Assembly (NCBI RefSeq): GCF_010671595.1
Contig: NZ_JAABOP010000001.1
Location: 1,364,001-1,428,000, forward strand
DNA: 64,000 nucleotides
Direction: 5' to 3'
Origin: Muriicola jejuensis
Lineage (GTDB): Bacteria; Bacteroidota; Bacteroidia; Flavobacteriales; Flavobacteriaceae
The notes beneath the pieces are model-generated. The model ran no database searches. It saw only the letters and a program-made list of their open reading frames with translations, and was not told where the DNA came from. This document shows positions 14,271 to 24,675 of this stretch, in pieces (position 1 is the stretch's first letter; the number at the start of each line of letters is the position of its first letter). The position numbers and the translations under genes are program-made.

Positions 14271-15029
14271 CTACCTGAGCAAGAGTATCAGAGCGCCTAA
14301 AGCGGTCAAGATCAGGATCATCTTGCGATAGAATCCTTCCCGTATCACCTTGACAAGCCTGACGCCGAGAAATAATCCCAGCCCAACACCGGGCAGGAGC
14401 ATGGCATTGATCAGGAGGGTTTCAGGAGTTATGGTTTTCCAGACCAGAATATGGAAGGGGAGTTTAAACAGATTGATGAAAAAGAAAACCCAGGCTGCCG
14501 TACCTATGAATTCGTTCTTTGGAAGCCTCATGGCCAGGAAAAAAATGTTGGAGAATGCCCCTGCAAGGTTCCCTATCATCGTTGTAATACCTGCAAGGAT
14601 TCCCATAAACCCTCCAAAGCTCCAGTGCGAAGGGACTACCTTCGATTTGCGAAGATCCCACCAGGTCATCATAGCCACACTTGCCAGGATCACGATGACC
14701 ATCCATACCTTAAACCTATCCTCCGGGAGGTCGTTGCCCAGAAACACCCCTATGACAACTCCGCACATCATCCAGGGCAGGAACCGCCTGATGTAATTCC
14801 AGCGTGCGTGCTTGTTGTAATAGACCACCGCAAAAATATCGCCCACGACGAAGAGAGGAACCAGAAGACCGGTTGAGGCACGAGCCCCGAATCCAAGGGC
14901 CATCAGCGTGATAATGATCACGGCGATCCCTTTGATGCCCGACTTTGAGATGCCCAGCACCACGGAAGCCACATAGGCGAGTATCCAGGATGTAAGGCTG
15001 ATTTCCAAGGCGACGGGTATAATTCCCAT
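14271..15029 (-). CDS. TauE/SafE family anion exporter
   Basis: A polytopic protein of 252 residues from ATG 15029 (MGIIPVALEISLTSWILAYV). An earlier ATG at 15107 would overlap the divergent symporter start and add 26 residues without helix character, so the shorter form is preferred. It has the repeated TauE signature: GISKSGIKGIAVIIITLMAL in the first half, and MGILAGITTMIGNLAGAFSN in the second, each with glycine-rich helices. The family (sulfite exporter/sulfoacetate) moves small anions across the inner membrane; the substrate here is unknown. It is divergent to the sodium symporter gene and may share the intergenic region 15030-15093. Confidence 0.85.
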   Translation of the reverse strand: MGIIPVALEISLTSWILAYVASVVLGISKSGIKGIAVIIITLMALGFGARASTGLLVPLFVVGDIFAVVYYNKHARWNYIRRFLPWMMCGVVIGVFLGNDLPEDRFKVWMVIVILASVAMMTWWDLRKSKVVPSHWSFGGFMGILAGITTMIGNLAGAFSNIFFLAMRLPKNEFIGTAAWVFFFINLFKLPFHILVWKTITPETLLINAMLLPGVGLGLFLGVRLVKVIREGFYRKMILILTALGALILLLR

Positions 15030-15093
15030 TAGCGGGTCGGATAAAGGTATCCCAAAAAATAATATCTTTAGCCACTGACCAACGTATGACCTT

Positions 15094-16905
15094 ATGGAAC
15101 TAAGCACGCTCGACTATGGCTTTATCATCGTTTTCTTTTCCACGGTACTGGCCATAGGGGTCATCGTTTCCAAAAAATCAGGTAAGAACACTTCCGAATT
15201 CTTTCTCAGCGGGCGTACCATGCCCTGGTGGCTTCTGGGGCTTTCCATGGTGGCAACCACCTTTTCTACGGACACTCCTAACCTGGTGACGGACATCGTC
15301 AGGACCAACGGGGTCTCTGGTAACTGGGTCTGGTGGGCCTTTCTGATTACCGGCCTCCTCACGGTCTTTGTCTACGCAAAGCTCTGGCGCAAATCGAACG
15401 TCAACACCGACCTGGAATTCTACGAACTGCGCTATGGGGGTGCACCGGCCAGATTCCTCAGGAAATTCAGGGCGATCTACCTCGGGGTCATCTTCAATGT
15501 GATAACGATGTCTGCCGTTACCCTGGCGGCTATCAAGATAGGGGGGATCATGCTGGGGCTCGAACCCTGGCAGACGGTGGTCAGTGCCGGACTCATCACC
15601 GTTACCTTCAGTGCACTTGGAGGGTTCAAAGGGGTTGTATATACAGACTTCCTGCTGTTCTTCGTGGCCATGGCCGGGGCGATAGGGGCGGCTTTCTACC
15701 TCGTGAATCTTCCTGAGGTGGGCGGGATCGAAGCCCTTATGGCCAATGAGCACGTCACCGACAAACTCTCCATCCTTCCCGATTTTAGCAATACCCAGGT
15801 CCTGATCACCCTCTTCGTGATCCCCCTGGCGGTACAGTGGTGGAGTTCCTGGTATCCCGGAGCAGAACCCGGCGGGGGTGGATATATCGCCCAGCGTATG
15901 CTGGCGGCGAAAAACGAGAACCACGCCATTGGGGCTACCTTTTTCTTTAACATCATGCATTACGCCCTTCGACCCTGGCCCTGGATCCTGGTGGCCCTGG
16001 CCTCTCTGGTGGTCTATCCCGACGTGGCGAGCATACATGAGGCCTTCCCTTTCATTGCCGATGATAAACTGGGCCATGACCTGGCCTATTCGGCCATGCT
16101 GACCAAACTACCCAGCGGGTTACTCGGACTGGTTCTGGCCTCTCTTATCGCCGCTTACATGTCTACCATTTCCACCCAGCTCAACTGGGGCTCTTCTTAT
16201 ATCGTATACGATTTTTACAAACAGCAGGTCAATCCGGATGCTTCGGAAAAGAGGCTTGTAGCCGTGGGAAGGATCTCCACAGTGGTCCTGATGGTCTTCA
16301 GCGCTGCCCTGGCTCTGTTGCTACAAAACGCGCTTCAGCTCTTTGAGGTGTTGCTGGTCTTCGGAGCCGGCACGGGTCTCATCTTTATCCTTCGCTGGTT
16401 CTGGTGGAGGATCAATGCTTGGAGTGAGATCACTGCCATGTTCGCTTCCGGGATTATTTCACTCCTGTTAAAGCTTACCCCTGTAGGAGCCTTCTTTTTT
16501 GCCCCTGAAACAGGTGTGTTTCCGGATTGGTCTGAATACATCTTTGTAGTTGTACTCACCACTGCGATCTGGATGGCAGCCACGTTCCTCACACAGCCGG
16601 AATCCAAGGAGGTGCTGAGGTCTTTCTATATGAAGATCCAACCCGGCGGTCCGGGCTGGGCAAGGGTGATCAGGGAAGCCGAAAAGGATCAGCAGAGGAT
16701 CGTGAATACGAATGAAAAATGGAGTGTGCCAGCAGGAATTACCGCTATGTTGCTGGGCTGTGTCCTGATCTATACCATTATGTTCGCAACGGGTTATTGG
16801 ATTTACGGGAAACACCTTCCGGCATCCATCCTGACCGCCATTGCCGTGATCTCAGGATTTCTCCTGACCAGGGTTTGGAACAGAATGAAGGGAAGTATAT
16901 TGTAA
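15094..16905 (+). CDS. Sodium:solute symporter (SSS family)
   Basis: A 603-residue inner-membrane protein with about 13-14 helices. SSS features: LDYGFIIVFFSTVLAIGVIV, the core with SKKSGKNTSEFFLSGRTMPW, then GLSMVATTFSTDTPNLVTDI (a helix-1-like sodium-site region), and the later QYIT-like stretch SLIAAYMSTISTQLNWGSSY, where Ser residues fit the Na2 site. It resembles solute symporters of the SGLT/SSF type found in Bacteroidota; substrate is not predictable, sugars being a common choice. It is followed after 12 bases by a NagX-like acyltransferase gene, and the two are likely co-transcribed. Together they could handle amino sugars, but this is inference. Confidence 0.9.
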   Translation: MELSTLDYGFIIVFFSTVLAIGVIVSKKSGKNTSEFFLSGRTMPWWLLGLSMVATTFSTDTPNLVTDIVRTNGVSGNWVWWAFLITGLLTVFVYAKLWRKSNVNTDLEFYELRYGGAPARFLRKFRAIYLGVIFNVITMSAVTLAAIKIGGIMLGLEPWQTVVSAGLITVTFSALGGFKGVVYTDFLLFFVAMAGAIGAAFYLVNLPEVGGIEALMANEHVTDKLSILPDFSNTQVLITLFVIPLAVQWWSSWYPGAEPGGGGYIAQRMLAAKNENHAIGATFFFNIMHYALRPWPWILVALASLVVYPDVASIHEAFPFIADDKLGHDLAYSAMLTKLPSGLLGLVLASLIAAYMSTISTQLNWGSSYIVYDFYKQQVNPDASEKRLVAVGRISTVVLMVFSAALALLLQNALQLFEVLLVFGAGTGLIFILRWFWWRINAWSEITAMFASGIISLLLKLTPVGAFFFAPETGVFPDWSEYIFVVVLTTAIWMAATFLTQPESKEVLRSFYMKIQPGGPGWARVIREAEKDQQRIVNTNEKWSVPAGITAMLLGCVLIYTIMFATGYWIYGKHLPASILTAIAVISGFLLTRVWNRMKGSIL

Positions 16906-16917
16906 AAATTCAAAAAT

Positions 16918-18006
16918 ATGAAGGAAAGGATCATCTCTGTAGACATCTTCAGGGGGCTTACCATCGCCCTGATGATACTCGTTAACACCCCTGGGACATG
17001 GGAATATGTGTTCCCCCCGCTCAGGCACGCCGATTGGCATGGTTATACCCCTACAGATCTGGTATTTCCGTTCTTCCTTTTTATCGTGGGGACCTCCATC
17101 GTATTTGCCTACAGGAACAAGGAACCCAATGCAGCAACGTATCGCAAGATCTCCATACGGACGTTAAAACTGATCGGGCTGGGCTTATTTCTCGGGGCTT
17201 TTACCCTCAGCTTCCCCTTTGTCAAGGATTTTGCTGAGATACGGTTTCCCGGGGTGCTTCAGCGAATCGGGGTTGTCTTTTTCTTTGCGGCTGTCCTTTA
17301 CCTGAATGCGAACTGGAAGGCGCTCCTGGGGATATGCGTCGCCATCCTTGTCGGATACTGGATTTGGCTGGGCTTCGTTCCTTTTGACGGGGCAGCTCCC
17401 ACCTTTGAACGCGCCCCGAACAACTGGGCCAATTATATAGACCTGCAGGTCTTTGGCACCCATATGTACAAAGACGATTACGACCCGGAAGGATTGCTGA
17501 GCACATTTCCTTCCATCGCCTCCTCTTTGCTGGGCATCTTTACGGGACTTATCCTGTTATCAAAGAGGCCCAAAAAAGAAGTGCTATTGCTTGCCCTAGG
17601 GGCTGCTATGGTGGTATTGGGTTACCTGTGGGATCTGGCATTTCCCATCAACAAAGCCCTGTGGTCCAGCAGTTTTGTACTTGTGACCGCCGGGTGGGCC
17701 AATATCGTCTTGGCACTGATCTATTATCTCACAGACGTAAAAGGAATACAATTCGGCAGCATCTTCAAATACACAGGTGCGAATGCAATCACGGTCTACT
17801 TCCTCTCCAGTTTTATTACCAAGATCTTCTACTCTGTTGAGGTAGCAGACGGGATGTCCCTGCATGGTTGGTTGTACGAGAAGATCTTTGTTCACTCCTT
17901 CCTTTCAGGCGAGATGTCCTCCCTCCTGTATGGATTAGCCGTAGTGAGTTTCTATTTGTTACTGGCCTGGTGGATGTATCGCCGAAAGATATTTATTAAA
18001 GTCTGA
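16918..18006 (+). CDS. NagX-like membrane acyltransferase (HGSNAT family)
   Basis: A 362-residue multi-pass protein. The N-terminus RIISVDIFRGLTIALMILVN with TP and HADWHGYTPTDLVFPFFLFI is the signature of the heparan-alpha-glucosaminide N-acetyltransferase/NagX family (DUF5009-type). It has about ten helices. Family members transfer acyl groups from acetyl-CoA to sugars across the membrane; the His in ADWHG is the likely catalytic residue. In bacteria they are often placed in N-acetylglucosamine or glycan use clusters. The gene sits 12 bases after the SSS symporter, which suggests a joint role in uptake and modification of a sugar. Confidence 0.85.
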   Translation: MKERIISVDIFRGLTIALMILVNTPGTWEYVFPPLRHADWHGYTPTDLVFPFFLFIVGTSIVFAYRNKEPNAATYRKISIRTLKLIGLGLFLGAFTLSFPFVKDFAEIRFPGVLQRIGVVFFFAAVLYLNANWKALLGICVAILVGYWIWLGFVPFDGAAPTFERAPNNWANYIDLQVFGTHMYKDDYDPEGLLSTFPSIASSLLGIFTGLILLSKRPKKEVLLLALGAAMVVLGYLWDLAFPINKALWSSSFVLVTAGWANIVLALIYYLTDVKGIQFGSIFKYTGANAITVYFLSSFITKIFYSVEVADGMSLHGWLYEKIFVHSFLSGEMSSLLYGLAVVSFYLLLAWWMYRRKIFIKV

Positions 18007-18035
18007 GGTATTCTCCTTACAGGATCCCGGATGCA

Positions 18036-18857
18036 TCAATGGGCATCGTGGCGGGAAAAAGCCCATTTGAGGAAGTCGGGAAAGATCCTTGACCAGGTGG
18101 GCAGGTCGTGCTTTCCCCCTTCAACTTCCACATAGGTGATCTGCCCGGGCCGGGTATACCCTTTGAGTTCCAATTCTTTGATCAGGTCCAGGGTATCGTC
18201 AATGGAATCGATGATACCATTGTGGTTGCGGTCTGCCTTTTCATCCAGCGTGCCGCACTGGAACCAGAAGGAGAGGTGAGGGGAGAAGGCCCCTTCCTTG
18301 ACCATATCCAGGACGATCCGGCTGCGGTCCTCGGGATCTTTTTTAGAGTAAGGCTTTTTCCGCCACCAGAAGGACCCGCTGAATACCGCTGCCTTACCGA
18401 ACAGATCCGGGTGATTGAACACGATATCGAAGGCGGATAATCCACCCAGGGACATCCCGCAATAGACCCACTCCTGTCCGGAGGGGGAGGCTCTGAATTC
18501 CTTTTTTAAAAAGGGAATGAATTCTTCTGTGACAAAGCTGGTATACGATCTGGCGTTGTCACCCCTGCCTTTATAATCTGCTGTACAGGCGGTGCCGTAA
18601 TCGCGCATTCTGTTTTCATCTGTTTCCAGGCCCACATACAGGAAGGGGTTTACGTTCCTGCTGCCATAGGCTGCCGTCAGAATCTTTTCGAGTCCGAGAG
18701 CTGTGTAGTCCTGCCCGTCATTCATCAGCAAAACGGGAAAGTCCTTGGCCCCTTTACGGAAAGAGGGGGGTGCGATAAGCCTGAAATGCACCTTTCTTTG
18801 CAGATATCGGGAGGAAAAGGAACCTTTGAGGCTTATGTGGTCTACATGTAGAATCAT
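18036..18857 (-). CDS. Alpha/beta-hydrolase esterase (enterochelin esterase-like)
   Basis: A 273-residue putative esterase without signal peptide. Motifs: KDFPVLLMNDGQDY, EFIPFLKKEFRASPSGQEWV, and the nucleophile elbow CGMSLGGLSAFDIVFN with Ser at about residue 144. The pattern FSGSFWWRKK and the C-terminal VEGGKHDLPTWSRI, whose His fits the triad, are those of the D-family enterochelin esterase-like hydrolases. An Asp in CGTLDEKADRN fits the acid position. Substrate is not known. It is divergent from, and next to, the amidoligase operon that starts with another esterase-like gene. Confidence 0.8.
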   Translation of the reverse strand: MILHVDHISLKGSFSSRYLQRKVHFRLIAPPSFRKGAKDFPVLLMNDGQDYTALGLEKILTAAYGSRNVNPFLYVGLETDENRMRDYGTACTADYKGRGDNARSYTSFVTEEFIPFLKKEFRASPSGQEWVYCGMSLGGLSAFDIVFNHPDLFGKAAVFSGSFWWRKKPYSKKDPEDRSRIVLDMVKEGAFSPHLSFWFQCGTLDEKADRNHNGIIDSIDDTLDLIKELELKGYTRPGQITYVEVEGGKHDLPTWSRIFPDFLKWAFSRHDAH

Positions 18858-18926
18858 CGGGTCATTCTAAAGGGGGCAAGTATAAGGAATCCCTTGAATT
18901 TTAGCGGGGTATAACCGAAAATAAAA

Positions 18927-18934
18927 TACCTTTG
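18927..18934 (+). promoter_or_regulatory. Probable -7 box of the amidoligase operon
   Basis: TACCTTTG matches TAnnTTTG and lies 48 bases before the start of the first operon gene. The only upstream TTG is 30 bases away (18894-18896), longer than the usual 19-20. The operon may therefore need an activator. Confidence 0.5.
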
Positions 18935-18982
18935 CCCGGTTAAATTTATTGGTAAACTTAGAAATTTAGGTTACATTATCCC

Positions 18983-19693
18983 ATGGCTTCTGTACAGTAT
19001 ATTCAGTACTATTCCCATACCCTTGAACGGAACATCAACCTGGAGATCACCGGTCATTGGGGATATCCCATTCTGATGTTCCCGTCTTCCTATGGCAGTT
19101 TTACCCAGAACAACGATTTCGGACTTAATGGTTCGGTAATGAATTTTGTGGAGGAAGGCCGGATCAAACTCTATAATGTGGAGACCATAGACGGACTTAC
19201 CTTCTATGCGGAGAACATGTCCTCTGAGATGAAGATTCACAACTACGAATTGTACATGCAATTCCTGAAAAATGAGCTAATTCCTTATATTCAGCGGGAA
19301 TGCAATACCCACAGGATTGGGGTTGCAGGGGTGAGTTTTGGAGGGTACCACGCCGGGAATACTGCTTTCAGGTTCCCAGACCTGGTCTCACACCTCTTCT
19401 CCATGTCCGGGGTTTTCAATATTCGTAACTTTGTACCCCTTTCGGATGATATGAGGATCTATTTCAACTGTCCGGATGAATTCATGCGAAATGAGGAGGG
19501 CTGGAAATATCAGCATATGAACATCGTGCTGAGCACATCCGACTGGGACAGTTGTAAGCCCAAGAACGAGCATATGGCGGGGATCCTCCAATCTAAAGGG
19601 ATCCCTTACTGGTACGACGAAAAAAAATGGATTGAGCATGACTGGCCTTTGTGGAAGATGGTATTTCCGGAATACATCGGCCGATATTTTTAA
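18983..19693 (+). CDS. Esterase family protein, first gene of the amidoligase operon
   Basis: A 236-residue alpha/beta-hydrolase-type protein. Motifs: SVQYIQYYSHTLERNINLEI, FPSSYGSFTQNNDFGLNGSV, and the nucleophile elbow GVAGVSFGGYHAGNTAFRFP with Ser about residue 115. The C-terminal WIEHDWPLWKMVFPEYIG supplies a His candidate. No signal peptide, so it is cytoplasmic. It resembles the small esterase group found beside ATP-grasp/ligase genes in Bacteroidota. In context it could release or hydrolyse an amide or ester made by the downstream ligases. It is 21 bases from the next gene and transcribed with it. Confidence 0.8.
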   Translation: MASVQYIQYYSHTLERNINLEITGHWGYPILMFPSSYGSFTQNNDFGLNGSVMNFVEEGRIKLYNVETIDGLTFYAENMSSEMKIHNYELYMQFLKNELIPYIQRECNTHRIGVAGVSFGGYHAGNTAFRFPDLVSHLFSMSGVFNIRNFVPLSDDMRIYFNCPDEFMRNEEGWKYQHMNIVLSTSDWDSCKPKNEHMAGILQSKGIPYWYDEKKWIEHDWPLWKMVFPEYIGRYF

Positions 19694-19714
19694 TCGAATT
19701 AAACATTACATAAG

Positions 19715-20863
19715 ATGATCAAAAAAGTTGGAATTTTATTTGGAATGGAAGACACTTTCCCCTGGGCCTTTATCGACAAGGTGAACGAGCTGGGGAACGG
19801 CAAGGTGGTGGCTGAACCCGTCCTGATCGACAAGGTTCAGCAGGGGATAGACTATGGGTACCACGTGATCATTGACAGGATCTCCCAGGAAGTACCCTTT
19901 TACAGGGCCTACCTGAAGAATGCATCCCTGATGGGAACCTGTGTGATCAACAACCCCTTCTGGTGGAGTGCTGATGAAAAATTCTTTAACAACTGCCTGG
20001 CTATGCAGATCGGGGTCCCTGTGCCTAAAACGGTTCTCTTGCCTTCCAAACACAGGCCAGATGACACCACGGAGAGGTCATTCAGAAACCTGAAGGCTCC
20101 ACTGGACTGGGAGTATATCTTCAATTATATAGGCTTTCCAGCCTATATGAAACCCCACTCAGGTGGAGGGTGGAAAAGTGTATACAAAGTGAACGATCCG
20201 GACGACCTCTTCGCCAAGCACGGGGAGACCGAGCAACTGGTCATGATGCTGCAGGAGGAGATCGTCTTTGAAGATTATTACAGGGTGTACTGCCTTGGGC
20301 AGAAATACGTGCATATCATGCCCTATGAACCCAGGAACGAGTTTCACCTCAGATATGTGACAGAGCCCAAGACCACCGGTGCAGAGCATCAGAAACTGAT
20401 GAAGACCATCCATGACTATACCATCAAGTTGAACAAGGCCCTGGGGTATGATTTCAATACGGTGGAATTTGCCGTAAGAAACGGGATCCCCTATGCCATT
20501 GATTTCTGTAACCCGGCCCCCGATGCAGATGTGCACTCCGTAGGAGAAGGGAATTTCAGATGGATCGTGGAACACGCGGCTAAGCTCGCGGTTGAAAAGG
20601 CCCTGGAGCACAAGGAGAAGAAGAACAACAGTTCCTGGGGTACCTTTGTTAAAGATTGCGTGGCCCCCGCTGCGGTAAAGGCTCCGAAGTCATCCTTAAA
20701 ATCAGCCGCAGAGGTAAAGAAGTCGGCCGTCAAGAAGACACCGGTAAAACCGGCCAGGACCAAAGTTACGCCCGCCAAGACCACGGCTGCCAAGACCACC
20801 AAGAAAACGACTGGGAAGAAGGAGAGCCCCAAGCCAAAAACGAGTCCAAAAAAGAAGAAATAA
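19715..20863 (+). CDS. ATP-grasp ligase with lysine-rich C-terminal tail
   Basis: A 382-residue protein. Residues about 1-315 form an ATP-grasp fold: N-terminal KKVGILFGMEDTFPWAFIDK, a lysine at PAYMKPHSGGGWKSVY (glycine-rich loop over ATP), QEEIVFEDYYRVYC, and the Mg-binding acidic pattern NTVEFAVRNGIPYAIDFCNP. ATP-grasp enzymes join a carboxylate to an amine through an acyl phosphate. The last 65 or so residues are nearly all Lys, Ala, Pro, Thr and Ser (AEVKKSAVKKTPVKPARTKV, ending TSPKKKK), like histone-H1/AlgP-type tails. The tail is not part of the fold and could bind nucleic acid or polyanions or be a modification target. The next gene follows after 18 bases. Confidence 0.8.
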   Translation: MIKKVGILFGMEDTFPWAFIDKVNELGNGKVVAEPVLIDKVQQGIDYGYHVIIDRISQEVPFYRAYLKNASLMGTCVINNPFWWSADEKFFNNCLAMQIGVPVPKTVLLPSKHRPDDTTERSFRNLKAPLDWEYIFNYIGFPAYMKPHSGGGWKSVYKVNDPDDLFAKHGETEQLVMMLQEEIVFEDYYRVYCLGQKYVHIMPYEPRNEFHLRYVTEPKTTGAEHQKLMKTIHDYTIKLNKALGYDFNTVEFAVRNGIPYAIDFCNPAPDADVHSVGEGNFRWIVEHAAKLAVEKALEHKEKKNNSSWGTFVKDCVAPAAVKAPKSSLKSAAEVKKSAVKKTPVKPARTKVTPAKTTAAKTTKKTTGKKESPKPKTSPKKKK

Positions 20864-20881
20864 AGCCATAAATAACCCGAC

Positions 20882-21979
20882 ATGAAAAAGTTCACCCTCG
20901 GCATTGAAGAGGAATTCCAGATCCTGGACAGCGAGACCTATACCCTCAGGTCCCATATGTCAAAGATCCTCGAAGGGGGGAAGGTTTTCCTGAAGGAGCG
21001 GATCAAGGAGGAGATGCACCAGGCCGTGATCGAGATGGGGACGAATATCTGCGAGAATATCAACCAGGCCAGGGACGAGGTATCTTATCTTAGGCAACAG
21101 GTCATAGAGCTGGCCGCCAAAGAAGGCCTGAAAGTAGGAGCCGCCGGAACGCACCCGTTTTCCAACTGGAGCGATCAGCCCATCACACCCAATCCCCGGT
21201 ATGACGAACTCATAGCGGAGATGAAGGACGTAGCCCGTTCCAACCTCATTTTCGGGCTGCACGTCCACGTGGGGATCCCGAGCAGGGAAGAGGGCTTGCA
21301 GATCATGAACATCGCCCGGTATTTTCTCCCCCACCTCTATGCATTATCTACCAATTCCCCCTTTTGGGAAGGGCGGGATACAGGATTTAAATCTTTCCGG
21401 TCCAAGATCTTCGACAAGTTCCCCCGTACGGGAATACCCCCTTATTTTGCCAGTGTGGGGGAGTATGACAAGTTTGTGGAAGTGCTGGTCAAGACCAACT
21501 GTATTGACAACGGGAAGAAGATCTGGTGGGACATCAGGCTGCACCCCTTCTACCCGACGGTGGAGTTTCGGGTATGCGATATGGTGATGACCGTGGATGA
21601 GGTGACCTGTATTGCGGCCCTGATGCAGTGTATCATAGCCAAGTTGCATAAATTGCACCAGAAGAACCAGAGCTTCAGGTCCTATCGCAGGGTACTGATC
21701 AACGAGAACAAATGGAGGGCCGCCCGCTGGGGGATAGAGGCCAAACTCATCGATTTCGGGAAAGAGGAAGAAGTGCCATTTAAGACCCTGATCAATGAAC
21801 TACTCGACTTTGTCGAAGATGTGGTGGACGAACTGGGCTGCAGAACAGAAGTGAATTACGTCTACCAGATGTTGGAACAAGGGTCCGGGGCGGATAGGCA
21901 ACTCAAAGTATTCAACGAGACCAACGACCTGAAGGAAGTGGTCAAGTACATAGTGGAAGAGACAGGGAAAGGCCTGTGA
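20882..21979 (+). CDS. Carboxylate-amine ligase (glutamate-cysteine ligase type 2 family)
   Basis: A 365-residue cytoplasmic enzyme with the GCS2/YbdK signature: FTLGIEEEFQILDSETYTLR at the N-terminus (GIEEEF metal/ATP site), GAAGTHPFSNW, FGLHVHVGIPSREEGLQIMN, and later DIRLHPFYPTVEFRVCDMVM. The family forms gamma-glutamylcysteine-like amide bonds; members outside glutathione makers are carboxylate-amine ligases of mostly unknown substrates. Length is normal. It lies between an ATP-grasp gene and a glutamine amidotransferase gene, so it probably acts on the same metabolite. The 60-base gap to the next gene contains no terminator. Confidence 0.85.
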   Translation: MKKFTLGIEEEFQILDSETYTLRSHMSKILEGGKVFLKERIKEEMHQAVIEMGTNICENINQARDEVSYLRQQVIELAAKEGLKVGAAGTHPFSNWSDQPITPNPRYDELIAEMKDVARSNLIFGLHVHVGIPSREEGLQIMNIARYFLPHLYALSTNSPFWEGRDTGFKSFRSKIFDKFPRTGIPPYFASVGEYDKFVEVLVKTNCIDNGKKIWWDIRLHPFYPTVEFRVCDMVMTVDEVTCIAALMQCIIAKLHKLHQKNQSFRSYRRVLINENKWRAARWGIEAKLIDFGKEEEVPFKTLINELLDFVEDVVDELGCRTEVNYVYQMLEQGSGADRQLKVFNETNDLKEVVKYIVEETGKGL

Positions 21980-22039
21980 TCATTAAAAACCAAGTCTTAT
22001 TTATCTCCGCTTTCCGGGAGGAACAAACAACAAGTATAC

Positions 22040-22876
22040 ATGCATCCAACATATAAAATCGCCATTCTCGACATGAATGCGGGTCAGCCCAATGAGGGTA
22101 TGCGCTGCATTAAGATGCTGGTCCAACAGTTTTTAGAACGGGATGATATTCAGGGAAGTTTTGAGATCTTCGATGTAAGGGTACAACACGAAGTACCCGA
22201 GGTGGAGGACTTCGATATATTCATAGCTTCCGGGGGGCCTGATTCCCCGAAGCCGGTTGGTGAAAAATGGGAAAAGAAGTTCTACCGATTCCTGGATTCC
22301 ATATATGACCACAACCTGCTGGAGGAAAACAAGAAATACCTCTTCTTGATCTGCCATTCCTTCCAGATAGCCTGTCTGCACTGGAAACTCGCCAAGATCA
22401 AAAGGCGGAAATCCACAGCTTTTGGGATCATGCCGGTCCACAAGACCAAGAAAGGCAAGGAGGAATTCCTGCTCGAGGGCCTGCACAACCCTTTCTATGC
22501 CGTGGATTCCAGGGACTACCAGGTGGTAAAGCCCAGAAAGAAACGCCTTAAAAGTTTGGGGTGCAAGGTGTTGTGCAAAGAAAAGAAAAGGCCTCACGTA
22601 CCCCTCGAACGGGCGGTGATGGCGATACGATTCTCCCCCGAGATCTTTGGGGTGCAGTTCCACCCCGAAGCAGATTCAGAGGGGATGATGCGCTATTTCC
22701 AGAGGCCGGATAAACGAGCTCATATCATCAAGCACCACGGGAAGAAGAAATACGAGGACATGATGATCCACCTGGATGATGACGATAAGATCCTGATGAC
22801 CAACCGGACCATCATTCCCCGTTTCCTGCAACAGGCGGCAGACGCCATTGACCATCAAACCCCAGTATCCGTATGA
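22040..22876 (+). CDS. Class I glutamine amidotransferase
   Basis: A 278-residue protein with a class I GATase fold: KIAILDMNAGQPNEGMRCIK, an early Asp-Ile-Phe-Ile-Ala-Ser-Gly-Gly-Pro segment (oxyanion region), a nucleophile segment YLFLICHSFQIACLHWKLAK with Cys about residue 110 (ICHSF instead of the usual GxCxG), and the His-Glu pair FGVQFHPEADSEGMMRYF. Such domains release ammonia from glutamine for an attached or partner synthase. No synthase domain is fused, so the partners are likely the ligases in the same operon. Its final ATGA is shared with the next gene, indicating translational coupling. Confidence 0.85.
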   Translation: MHPTYKIAILDMNAGQPNEGMRCIKMLVQQFLERDDIQGSFEIFDVRVQHEVPEVEDFDIFIASGGPDSPKPVGEKWEKKFYRFLDSIYDHNLLEENKKYLFLICHSFQIACLHWKLAKIKRRKSTAFGIMPVHKTKKGKEEFLLEGLHNPFYAVDSRDYQVVKPRKKRLKSLGCKVLCKEKKRPHVPLERAVMAIRFSPEIFGVQFHPEADSEGMMRYFQRPDKRAHIIKHHGKKKYEDMMIHLDDDDKILMTNRTIIPRFLQQAADAIDHQTPVSV

Positions 22877-24069
22877 TTTCCAAGGTAAGAGAACGCTTTA
22901 ACTCAGGCTTCAGGGACGCTTATTACGAAGGGCTTCAAAAGGAAGTGCTCAAGACCTTCGGAGAGCCCTGCCCTTTCCGGATCTCGGAGACCCCTGTGTT
23001 TATTGACAGGGAGATGAAGGGGAAAGTGTTCGATGCCTGTGATGCCATACTCCGGCAACTGGACGATCTCGATTTTGAGGCGGTAAGGCAGCGATTCATG
23101 CCTAAACAACTGCATTCTCCTACTCCTGTGGGCAACCCGCATTTTTTGGGGATCGATTTTGGGATCTGCGAGGATGAACACGGAAATCTGAGTCCGCAAT
23201 TGATAGAACTGCAGGCTTTTCCCTCCCTCTTCTTTTATCAACCCTTTCTGGCCAAGGCCTATCTGAACAATTATCCCAATATCCCGGTGGATGACTTCCA
23301 CTATTTTCTGGGGGGGCATACCGAAAAATCTTATTTGGAGGCCCTGCGGGAAGTGATTTTAGGGGATGAAGCCGCGGAAAATGTGATCCTGATGGAAATA
23401 TTCCCGGAAGCTCAAAAGACGAGGATCGATTTCTGGGCTACCCAACAAGCCCTGGGGATAGAGGTGGTTTGTATGACCAAGGTCATCAAGGAAGGCAAGC
23501 GGTTGTACTATGAGAAGGAAGGCCGAAAGATACAGATCCGCAGGATCTACAACCGTGTGATTTTTGACGACCTGTACCAGTTCAAGGACCTTAAGACGAG
23601 CTTCAACATTTTTGATGATCTGGAGGTGACCTGGATCACAAATCCAGACTGGTTCTTTATGATCTCCAAATGCATCATGCCGATGCTTTCCCATGAGAGC
23701 ATCCCTGAGTCTTACTACCTGGATGAGGTGCCGCGAGACATCGATTTGAAACAGTATGTGCTTAAGCCCCTGTTCTCTTTTGCGGGGAAAGGGGTGAATC
23801 TGGAGCCCACCTGGGAGCTGCTCAATACGATCAAGGATATGAAGAACTACATGCTCCAGAAAAAGGTGAAGTATTCTCCCCTTATCAAGACCCTTACCGA
23901 TCGGAATTCCCGGGTTGAATTGCGCATATTGTTTGTCAGGGATGAAAAAGAGGGCAGATTAAAGCCGGTGATCAACCTTACCCGGATGGGTAAAGGCGGG
24001 ATGATCAATGTCTCTCACAACACCAATGATACCTGGATAGGTTCTTCCATCAGTTTTTTCGAAAAATAG
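22873..24069 (+). CDS. Second ATP-grasp-like protein of the amidoligase operon
   Basis: A 398-residue protein starting on the ATGA overlap with the amidotransferase gene. I see a nucleotide-binding lysine segment QYVLKPLFSFAGKGVNLEPT at about residues 295-315 and LKPVINLTRMGKGGMINVSH near the end, which is the ATP-grasp pattern of lysine loop and acidic/Arg-rich C-terminus. The first part (FLGIDFGICEDEHGNLSPQL, IELQAFPSLFFYQPFL) reads like the preATP-grasp portion in a permuted order, similar to the circularly permuted ATP-grasp family often found with GCS2 ligases. The exact family is uncertain. It ends the operon; the next gene (ribE) is convergent. Confidence 0.65.
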   Translation: MISKVRERFNSGFRDAYYEGLQKEVLKTFGEPCPFRISETPVFIDREMKGKVFDACDAILRQLDDLDFEAVRQRFMPKQLHSPTPVGNPHFLGIDFGICEDEHGNLSPQLIELQAFPSLFFYQPFLAKAYLNNYPNIPVDDFHYFLGGHTEKSYLEALREVILGDEAAENVILMEIFPEAQKTRIDFWATQQALGIEVVCMTKVIKEGKRLYYEKEGRKIQIRRIYNRVIFDDLYQFKDLKTSFNIFDDLEVTWITNPDWFFMISKCIMPMLSHESIPESYYLDEVPRDIDLKQYVLKPLFSFAGKGVNLEPTWELLNTIKDMKNYMLQKKVKYSPLIKTLTDRNSRVELRILFVRDEKEGRLKPVINLTRMGKGGMINVSHNTNDTWIGSSISFFEK

Positions 24070-24090
24070 ATTCCGGAAACCCCCTTTGGG

Positions 24091-24675
24091 TTATTTCCCC
24101 AGGAGTCGGGCTACATATTTCCCGATGACGTCGAATTCCAGGTTTACCCTGCTTCCTACCTCGTACTGCTGGAACCGGGTGTGTTCATAGGTATAAGGAA
24201 TGATGGCCACACTAAAACGGTCTTCTTCTGAATCGACCACGGTAAGGCTGACTCCGTCTACGGTAATCGATCCTTTCTCAATGGTCACATGCCCCCTGGA
24301 AGGGGTATAGGTAAAGGTAAAATACCAGCTCCCGTCCTTCTGCTCGATCTTTGTGCACACAGCGGTAGTGTCTACATGTCCCTGCACGATATGCCCGTCG
24401 AGGCGGGTTCCCAGGATCATCGCCCGTTCCAGGTTTACACGGTCCCCTCTAGCGAGATCGCCGAGGGTCGACTTGAGGAGGGTCTCTTCTACAGCCGTAA
24501 CGGTGTATTCCTTTCCCTCAATCCCTACAACCGTCAGGCAGACACCATTGTGGGCCACACTCTGGTCGATCTTCAGTTCCGGGGTGATCTCGGCTGCGAT
24601 CGTAAGGTGGAGATTGCTCCCTTCCTTTTTTCGATCTCTGACCTCCCCGAGGGTTTCAATGATTCCGGTAAACAT
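24091..24675 (-). CDS. ribE: Riboflavin synthase alpha chain
   Basis: Riboflavin synthase dismutates two molecules of 6,7-dimethyl-8-ribityllumazine to riboflavin. The 194-residue protein shows two tandem lumazine-binding repeats: MFTGIIETLGEV at the start, AHNGVCLTVVGIEGKEYTV, and GTRLDGHIVQGHVDTTAVC in the first; ITVDGVSLTVVDSEEDRFSV and IPYTYEHTRFQQYEVGSRVN in the second. Length and motif order are standard. It is divergent from pdxA, a common pairing in Flavobacteriia, and convergent with the amidoligase operon. Confidence 0.93.
   Translation of the reverse strand: MFTGIIETLGEVRDRKKEGSNLHLTIAAEITPELKIDQSVAHNGVCLTVVGIEGKEYTVTAVEETLLKSTLGDLARGDRVNLERAMILGTRLDGHIVQGHVDTTAVCTKIEQKDGSWYFTFTYTPSRGHVTIEKGSITVDGVSLTVVDSEEDRFSVAIIPYTYEHTRFQQYEVGSRVNLEFDVIGKYVARLLGK

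Follow-up and report, generated by a model that had tools for sequence, protein, structure and literature searches.

A block of six genes in Muriicola jejuensis encodes three ligases that form amide bonds at carboxylates, one class I glutamine amidotransferase (GATase)-fold protein and two serine esterases (Table 1). It lies in a 64,000-nucleotide stretch of contig NZ_JAABOP010000001.1 (positions 1,364,001 to 1,428,000; here called the window) of a 3.3 Mb genome. We put at about even the chance that the six genes constitute one transferable or loss-prone metabolic cassette, which assembles a short peptide or peptide-amide non-ribosomally, by a glutathione-type logic, and trims it. The cassette's support so far comes from the fold classes of its proteins, their intact catalytic residues, the presence or absence of the block at one chromosomal site, and the co-occurrence of the ligases. 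A short peptide or peptide-amide would be the product because three carboxylate amide-bond ligases are accompanied by peptidase or hydrolase partners.

Block presence and shared history

Genes 1 to 5 lie on one strand with gaps of 21, 18 and 60 bases followed by a 4-base ATGA overlap, just as an earlier note, made from the letters of this DNA alone, had described. The order 1-2-3-4-5 on a single strand recurs in 57 of 80 compared loci (the best 80 of 591 confirmed), and the complete five-gene run is present in 14 of the 178 Bacteroidota genomes sampled (the window's own counted), so the arrangement is not one of chance. The second esterase gene, E2, is transcribed away from gene 1. It occurs in 15 of the 178 genomes (E<=1e-25), all 15 of which also have genes 2 and 5, and in 14 of them it lies divergently within 3 kb of gene 1 or gene 2; the Muriicola-Maribacter loci, and many of those from Cytophagales, have it adjoining gene 1. 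E2 belongs to the same block as genes 1–5, making six genes. The single unit of the earlier note is thus upheld by the empty site, the gene trees and the co-occurrence, whereas its five-gene limits give way to six.

The chromosomal site is found both occupied and empty. In the window, in Muriicola (L031) and in genome G213 (L157), exactly E2 and genes 1–5 stand between an HGSNAT/DUF5009-type gene and a riboflavin synthase gene, and in four cassette-free genomes (G203, G188, G134 and G195) the same two flanking genes are 84, 40, 47 and 88 bases apart, respectively. These are the four cluster-free genomes that were opened, all of them empty at the site, from a flank gene known in 27 genomes; gene 5 was searched for in all four and genes 1–4 genome-wide in G134 only, while the comparison of the sites used the core region of gene 2 as its query. 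Within the family, gene 5 is present in six of 70 genera (one genome per genus, the window's own counted). In the evolution of Bacteroidota the cassette has come or gone as a single unit. The closest named relative among the matches listed is Muriicola marianensis, with a gene 5 that is 87% identical, which points to Flavobacteriaceae and agrees with the Flavobacteriia named in the earlier note. Upstream of the site, the symporter and TauE-type permease genes are both kept in three of the four cassette-free relatives, and the fourth has the symporter further away.

The five genes also share an unusual history. Trees were built from 31–32 rows each, which were selected among the window and the 80 loci once an earlier gene 5 tree (62 rows, Chryseobacterium thinned) had been inspected. 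In all five the window's group joins Weeksellaceae (support, from gene 1 to gene 5, 100/100, 100/99, 99/95, 85/80 and 100/99, that for gene 4 not being starred), and a single clade of the two Flavobacteriaceae groups is rejected for each gene (approximately unbiased test p 6e-72, 1.1e-4, 3.3e-4, 1.8e-4 and 1.1e-5, in the same order). The other Flavobacteriaceae group falls with Portibacter, which is of a different class, in the trees that include that row (genes 1, 2, 4 and 5). Because all five trees have one off-taxonomy grouping in common, the genes probably moved together, and their history, as read from the trees, is that of at least one joint transfer or of an old duplication with joint losses.

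Within the intergenic region of E2 and gene 1, the segment TACCTTTG (18927-18934) matches the pattern TAnnTTTG, the -7 box of Bacteroidetes promoters; there are 44 occurrences in the window against 34 expected, and the promoter signal is weak and near chance. An anti-phage defence system was considered and rejected, since PADLOC defence models gave zero families for all six cassette proteins. A search of plasmid records with gene 5 and of phage records with the gene 2 core returned no match.

Table 1. Features of the cassette and its flanks in the window (aa, amino acids)
Feature	Coordinates	Strand	Basis or remark
E2: PF00756 serine esterase, 273 aa	18036..18857	-	Divergent to gene 1; sixth cassette member
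Gene 1: PF00756 esterase, 236 aa	18983..19693	+	Pfam
Gene 2: RimK/LysX-like ATP-grasp ligase, 382 aa	19715..20863	+	TIGR00768 below cut-off, and fold
Gene 2 Lys/Ala/Pro-rich tail	20642-20860	+	Alignment of gene 2 sequences
Gene 3: GCS2/YbdK-type carboxylate-amine ligase, 365 aa	20882..21979	+	PF04107, NF010039
Gene 4: class I glutamine amidotransferase-fold protein, 278 aa	22040..22876	+	PF00117
Gene 5: predicted circularly permuted ATP-grasp, glutathione synthetase/GspS/YgiC fold, 398 aa	22873..24069	+	AlphaFold2 model
Divergent intergenic region between E2 and gene 1	18858..18982	.	TACCTTTG at 18927-18934
Cassette extent	18007..24090	.	Block absence in four relatives
HGSNAT/DUF5009-type flank gene	16918-18006		Neighbour of riboflavin synthase gene in cassette-free relatives
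Riboflavin synthase flank gene	24091-24675		Two lumazine-binding domains
Sodium:solute symporter	15094-16905		Upstream conserved flank
TauE-type permease	14271-15107		Upstream conserved flank

Fold classes and catalytic residues

The classes that the earlier note assigned to the first four genes (esterase, ATP-grasp, GCS2 and class I GATase) agree with the Pfam and NCBIfam matches and with the fold of gene 2, and its suggestion of a permuted ATP-grasp for the fifth is borne out by an AlphaFold2 model with a predicted local distance difference test score (pLDDT) of 91.4 and a predicted template modelling score of 0.90. This model matches YjfC and YgiC with Z 26.3 and 26.1 (346 residues each), soybean homoglutathione synthetase with 24.8, GspS with 24.6, human glutathione synthetase with 24.2, trypanothione synthetase with 22.7, and the E-64 ligase Cp1B (9cjn) with 22.0, all as end-to-end colinear matches across 330–370 residues (Z 22–26). 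The next structural match listed is 3k1t (Z 12.4), and ordinary ATP-grasps reach at most Z 8.4 and align from residue 147 onward. On the strength of the model, gene 5 is a permuted ATP-grasp of the glutathione synthetase/GspS/YgiC fold. Thirty proteins aligned over nearly their full length have D95, E112, K298, E349 and R351 among their invariant residues; here and in the other cassette proteins catalytic residues were assigned from families by reading, including which Asp acts in the esterases. The window's protein does not reach Pfam GSP_synth PF03738 (13.2 bits against a cut-off of 29.3; E 0.05), and as judged from its sequence by that family's own cut-off it is not a glutathionylspermidine synthase member. 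Ten of the 30 gene 5 sequences match PF03738 at E<=0.1 (best 5.2e-5), and a gene 5 profile matches YgiC near the ATP lysine (E 0.0029).

In one genome (G125, L018:70-2673) an 867-aa open reading frame (ORF) fuses a sodium:solute symporter (PF00474) to gene 5 with no stop. We set aside a transporter link to gene 5, as no symporter match was found within 1.5 kb upstream of gene 5 in either G079 or G137 (the search covered these two and not G133), and a local alignment of the window's own symporter with the fused one shows only 21% identity.

Gene 2 resembles RimK and LysX in fold. The first 300 residues of its model match RimK with Z 20.6 (256 residues) and LysX with Z 19.5, and K146, R190, E251 and N266 are invariant across 33 gene 2 sequences. 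The protein scores 31.1 bits against a cut-off of 143.4 for the RimK family TIGR00768 (E 1.5e-7), and by this sequence criterion it is not a member. From about residue 310 there is a Lys-rich C-terminal tail that is predicted to be disordered (mean pLDDT 32–43 for residues 321–382). Tails of this kind (at least 20 residues with at least 20% Lys) are present in 17 of the 33 sequences, the window's included, as Lys/Ala/Pro-rich segments of 24–131 residues in several families, and other sequences with an intact cluster are tailless; of the 16 that fail the criterion, three (L072, L076 and L085) do so narrowly. In Maribacter antarcticus (L039:6873-7979) gene 2 is split into two ORFs (187 and 177 aa) by a frameshift that is either genomic or from the assembly. 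A RimK-type protein, which may be gene 2 or another, is reported as induced in a Maribacter proteome (excerpts of PMC11036162).

Two alternatives turn on gene 2. One is that the ligases tag a protein or polymer, with gene 2 adding residues, perhaps to its own tail, and gene 4 and the esterases removing them, for which RimK as the nearest fold and the recurrence of the tail in several separate lineages would speak. We think this very unlikely. All seven Weeksellaceae-group rows are among those that fail the tail criterion, and their cluster is intact; moreover, the synthesis of small molecules is the main known setting of GCS2 and glutathione-synthetase-type enzymes. The second is maturation of a graspetide-type ribosomally synthesised and post-translationally modified peptide, to which we give hardly any credence: gene 2 does align with the graspetide ligases PsnB and MdnC (Z 17–18), but RimK, LysX and ArgX all outrank them, and graspetides are not known to need two further ligase classes. 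The window's cassette, in which the longest gap is 125 bases, has room neither for a tag gene nor, within this one locus as scanned, for a graspetide precursor gene.

Gene 3 is a YbdK-type carboxylate-amine ligase. It matches GCS2 PF04107 (1.3e-66) and NF010039 (548 bits against a cut-off of 371), and a gene 3 profile matches the YbdK structure 1r8g (1e-62). The protein begins G7-I8-E9-E10-E11, of which G7, E9, E10 and E11 are invariant in 31 sequences, in agreement with the GhExE signature of carboxylate-amine ligases (excerpts of PMC2588565). The cut-offs of glutamate-cysteine ligase models are all missed, the best being PRK13517.1-3 (374 against 409 bits), and by those models gene 3 is predicted not to be a glutamate-cysteine ligase. 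Gene 3 adjoins an S10 carboxypeptidase gene in G027 and G101, where the cluster genes are scattered.

This result bears on whether the cassette serves a strict, core thiol role of the glutathione type, which we regard as quite unlikely. GCS2 and a glutathione-synthetase fold are the pair of classes used for glutathione, and PF00756, to which both esterases belong, includes S-formylglutathione hydrolase, although gene 1 matches that family's model TIGR02821 only at 0.011. Against such a role, gene 3 falls below the glutamate-cysteine ligase cut-offs and is absent from lineages that keep genes 2, 4 and 5, and restriction of gene 5 to six of 70 genera would be odd for a core thiol. It is less likely also because the host encodes BshC (1e-131; the search covered BshC and not BshA or BshB) and the full bacillithiol pathway is reported to be encoded in 2111 Bacteroidota species (excerpts of PMC12719100).

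Gene 4 has the features of a class I glutamine amidotransferase, with a PF00117 match (1.2e-9; 38.6 bits against a cut-off of 22.8) and a Cys-His-Glu triad (C105, H208 and E210) that is invariant in 41 sequences. The window's protein reaches the cut-off of no NCBIfam model, and as a single sequence it matches no solved structure at E<=0.1; a gene 4 profile finds only two MetA entries (best 2.6e-4) and 3l7n, a protein of unknown function. It may be a gamma-glutamyl hydrolase, an ammonia donor, or act like its MetA relatives. Both esterases score above the PF00756 cut-off of 22 bits (gene 1, 38.2 bits, 1.8e-9; E2, 88.9 bits, 6.1e-25) and have a Ser-Asp-His triad, S118, D189 and H219 being invariant in 29 gene 1 sequences and S136, D205 and H250 being among the invariant residues of 17 E2 sequences. 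The earlier note had cast gene 4 as an ammonia supplier and the esterase as releasing the product, and had argued from the missing transporter that the product may stay in the cell; these three proposals did not find support, with gamma-glutamyl hydrolysis or a MetA-like action also possible for gene 4.

Ligase co-occurrence and lineage variants

In the 178 genomes weak matches were dropped for gene 1 (those weaker than 2.2e-21; 69 of 79 genomes kept), gene 2 (65 of 66 kept) and gene 3 (57 of 58 kept), as well as for the two further ATP-grasps described below. About one third of the genomes carry these ligases (gene 2 in 65, gene 5 in 54); gene 3 is present in 57 and gene 4 in 44. Both gene 2 and gene 5 are found in 52 genomes, gene 2 without gene 5 in 13, gene 5 without gene 2 in two and neither in 111; genes 3 and 5 are together in 51. 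The association is still strong when genomes are collapsed to 93 genera, where the counts are 43 with both genes 2 and 5, eight with gene 2 only, none with gene 5 only and 42 with neither, and genes 3 and 5 are together in 41. The earlier note held that scattering of the genes in related genomes would undo the single pathway, and scattering is indeed seen: in 14 (10 genera) of the 49 genomes with genes 2, 3 and 5 none of these is within 3 kb of another. The genes nevertheless still co-occur, which favours a single pathway, and because they scatter without being lost this suggests that genes 2, 3 and 5 share a function rather than hitch-hike.

Departures from the arrangement in the window are of two types. 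First, gene 5 can be replaced. Ten genomes have gene 4 without gene 5, and all ten carry a CP_ATPgrasp_2-related protein some 450 residues long (11 of 49 genomes kept at E<=1e-83), which in every case is encoded no more than 3 kb from gene 2 or gene 4, and between the two in the loci opened (e.g. L112:6576-7931, L116:5643-7058 and L111:10460-11821). The eleventh, G137, combines gene 5 with a more distant copy located elsewhere. Either gene 5 or the replacement is present in 62 of the 65 gene-2 genomes, and the other three are those in which gene 2 itself matches most weakly. The fixed core of the system is gene 2 plus one permuted ATP-grasp, and the remaining members vary by lineage. Such an exchange of permuted ATP-grasps within an otherwise unchanged gene neighbourhood would illustrate how ligase pathways get rebuilt.

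Second, there are additions. A third ATP-grasp, AG3 (e.g. L051:4563-5777), is found in 36 of the 178 genomes (36 of 50 kept at E<=2.6e-88), all 36 with gene 2, and it is together with E2 in one genome only. In Chryseobacterium and Elizabethkingia loci an M17 aminopeptidase gene and AG3 precede gene 1, and in Gelidibacter, Subsaxibacter, Robiginitalea and one of two Polaribacter loci the same pair follows gene 5 on the opposite strand. In Dyadobacter and several other Cytophagales genera a class III aminotransferase gene follows gene 5. The lineage-specific peptidase neighbours (M17 aminopeptidase and S10 carboxypeptidase) count in favour of peptide synthesis and trimming. A type 2 asparaginase-like gene (PF01112) is near AG3 in the variant cluster of G131 (L111:6046-7023), and an aromatic amino acid lyase gene (PF00221) directly follows gene 2 in the scattered cluster of G027 (L119:1703-4185).

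The distribution also bears on a further alternative, in which the genes form a specialised-metabolite cluster like that for E-64, whose products would be amides joining an amine to a non-amino acid, the esterases serving in tailoring or self-protection. Cp1B has the same fold as gene 5, the distribution is patchy with tree groupings suggesting transfer, and the aminotransferase of several Cytophagales genera would suit such a product. We consider it unlikely all the same, as there is no transporter, regulator or oxidative tailoring gene within the cassette, a gene 5 in 54 of 178 genomes is broad for a specialised metabolite, and the genes persist even where scattered.

Proposed function and comparison with known systems

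A short peptide or peptide-amide, made and trimmed by the cassette, thus remains the reading that we prefer. Gene 3 would join a side-chain (gamma) carboxylate, probably that of glutamate, to an amine; gene 2 would add a further amino acid; and gene 5 would close the chain at its free carboxylate with an amino acid or amine. Gene 4 would then remove the gamma-glutamyl group or supply ammonia, and the two esterases would remove an ester from the precursor or the product, assembly and trimming both taking place in the cytoplasm. With glutathione and glutathionylspermidine as models, the simplest scheme would have the GCS2 enzyme act first, the RimK-like ligase second and the glutathione-synthetase-like one last, and by its folds and partners the cassette would most likely work like glutathione-type synthesis. 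An amine or polyamine end group is a possibility because YgiC and YjfC, like gene 5 in fold, are described as peptidylpolyamine synthetases in excerpts of PMC12568646, where Cp1B is given as the E-64 pathway ligase.

Several points weigh against this proposal. Genes 3 and 4 are missing from 12 and 22 of the 65 gene-2 genomes, respectively, and if they are dispensable the reaction order is not fixed. Gene 2 and gene 5 score below the RimK-family and GSP_synth cut-offs, so their substrates may differ from those of all named relatives. AG3 is within 5 kb of the cluster in just six of its 36 genomes. In the co-occurrence counts kinship is handled by genus collapse only. Over all 178 genomes, mutual exclusion is significant neither for the replacement ATP-grasp and gene 5 (p 0.18) nor for E2 and AG3 (p 0.31); within the 65 gene-2 genomes both are significant (1.7e-8 and 1.4e-5, respectively), with lineage ignored. 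As to history, the shared tree groupings could stem from an old duplication with losses and not from transfer, and genes 3 and 4, for which the Weeksellaceae sister position is not firm, also allow union of the window's group with Cytophagales (p 0.067 and 0.17, respectively).

We go further only tentatively, and on balance lean against the full claim, in suggesting that the product represents a widespread, undescribed class of short peptide-amides that is cytoplasmic and exists beside bacillithiol. Its synthesis would be modular, with a constant RimK-like ligase, a permuted ATP-grasp exchangeable between two very different versions and with GCS2, AG3, GATase, esterases and peptidases added by lineage. 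Because family libraries name the ligases only in general terms, Bacteroidota, a major phylum, may have a common metabolite that is still unassigned. The compact cassette, and its natural presence and absence at one chromosomal site in relatives, make the proposal directly testable.

Among the papers listed by full-text literature searches, which did not extend to the 2009 amidoligase survey of Iyer and others, none describes this cassette. Clusters of unlike peptide ligases are already a recognised kind as far as the excerpted sources go, with linked ATP-grasp and COOH-NH2 ligases observed in multiple instances (excerpts of PMC4431377). A GS-fold ligase beside a GATase-like thiol peptidase has been read as synthesis of glutathione or a related peptide (excerpts of PMC2588565), and in those neighbourhoods, as in the cassette, a carboxylate-amine ligase is encoded beside a GATase-fold protein. 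They differ in that the ligase is of a different family and the peptidase is in proteobacteria, whereas the cassette has three ligases and two esterases and is in Bacteroidota.

The individual enzymes likewise show both kinship and distance. Gene 3 is a full member of the YbdK family, with all 31 sequences matching NF010039 and TIGR02050 (E<=1e-20) and the window's protein exceeding both cut-offs; it differs in its company, as among the 57 gene-3 genomes only G004 and G167 are without both gene 2 and gene 5. Gene 2 shares the fold of RimK, LysX and ArgX, and its four invariant residues can be matched by reading to the catalytic residues of RimK, but it is below the family cut-off, has a Lys-rich tail in some members, and reads D263-x-x-N266 where RimK has E-x-N. 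The model of gene 5 has the same fold as the eukaryotic glutathione and homoglutathione synthetases and Cp1B (353–370 residues, Z 22.0–24.8) at 10–13% identity. With YgiC/YjfC and GspS it would share the complete permuted ATP-grasp fold (346 aligned residues, Z 26 and 25); it differs in being only 11–13% identical, in lacking an amidase domain, in having other gene neighbours, and in an invariant E112-x-Q114 at the site where GspS has E-x-N.

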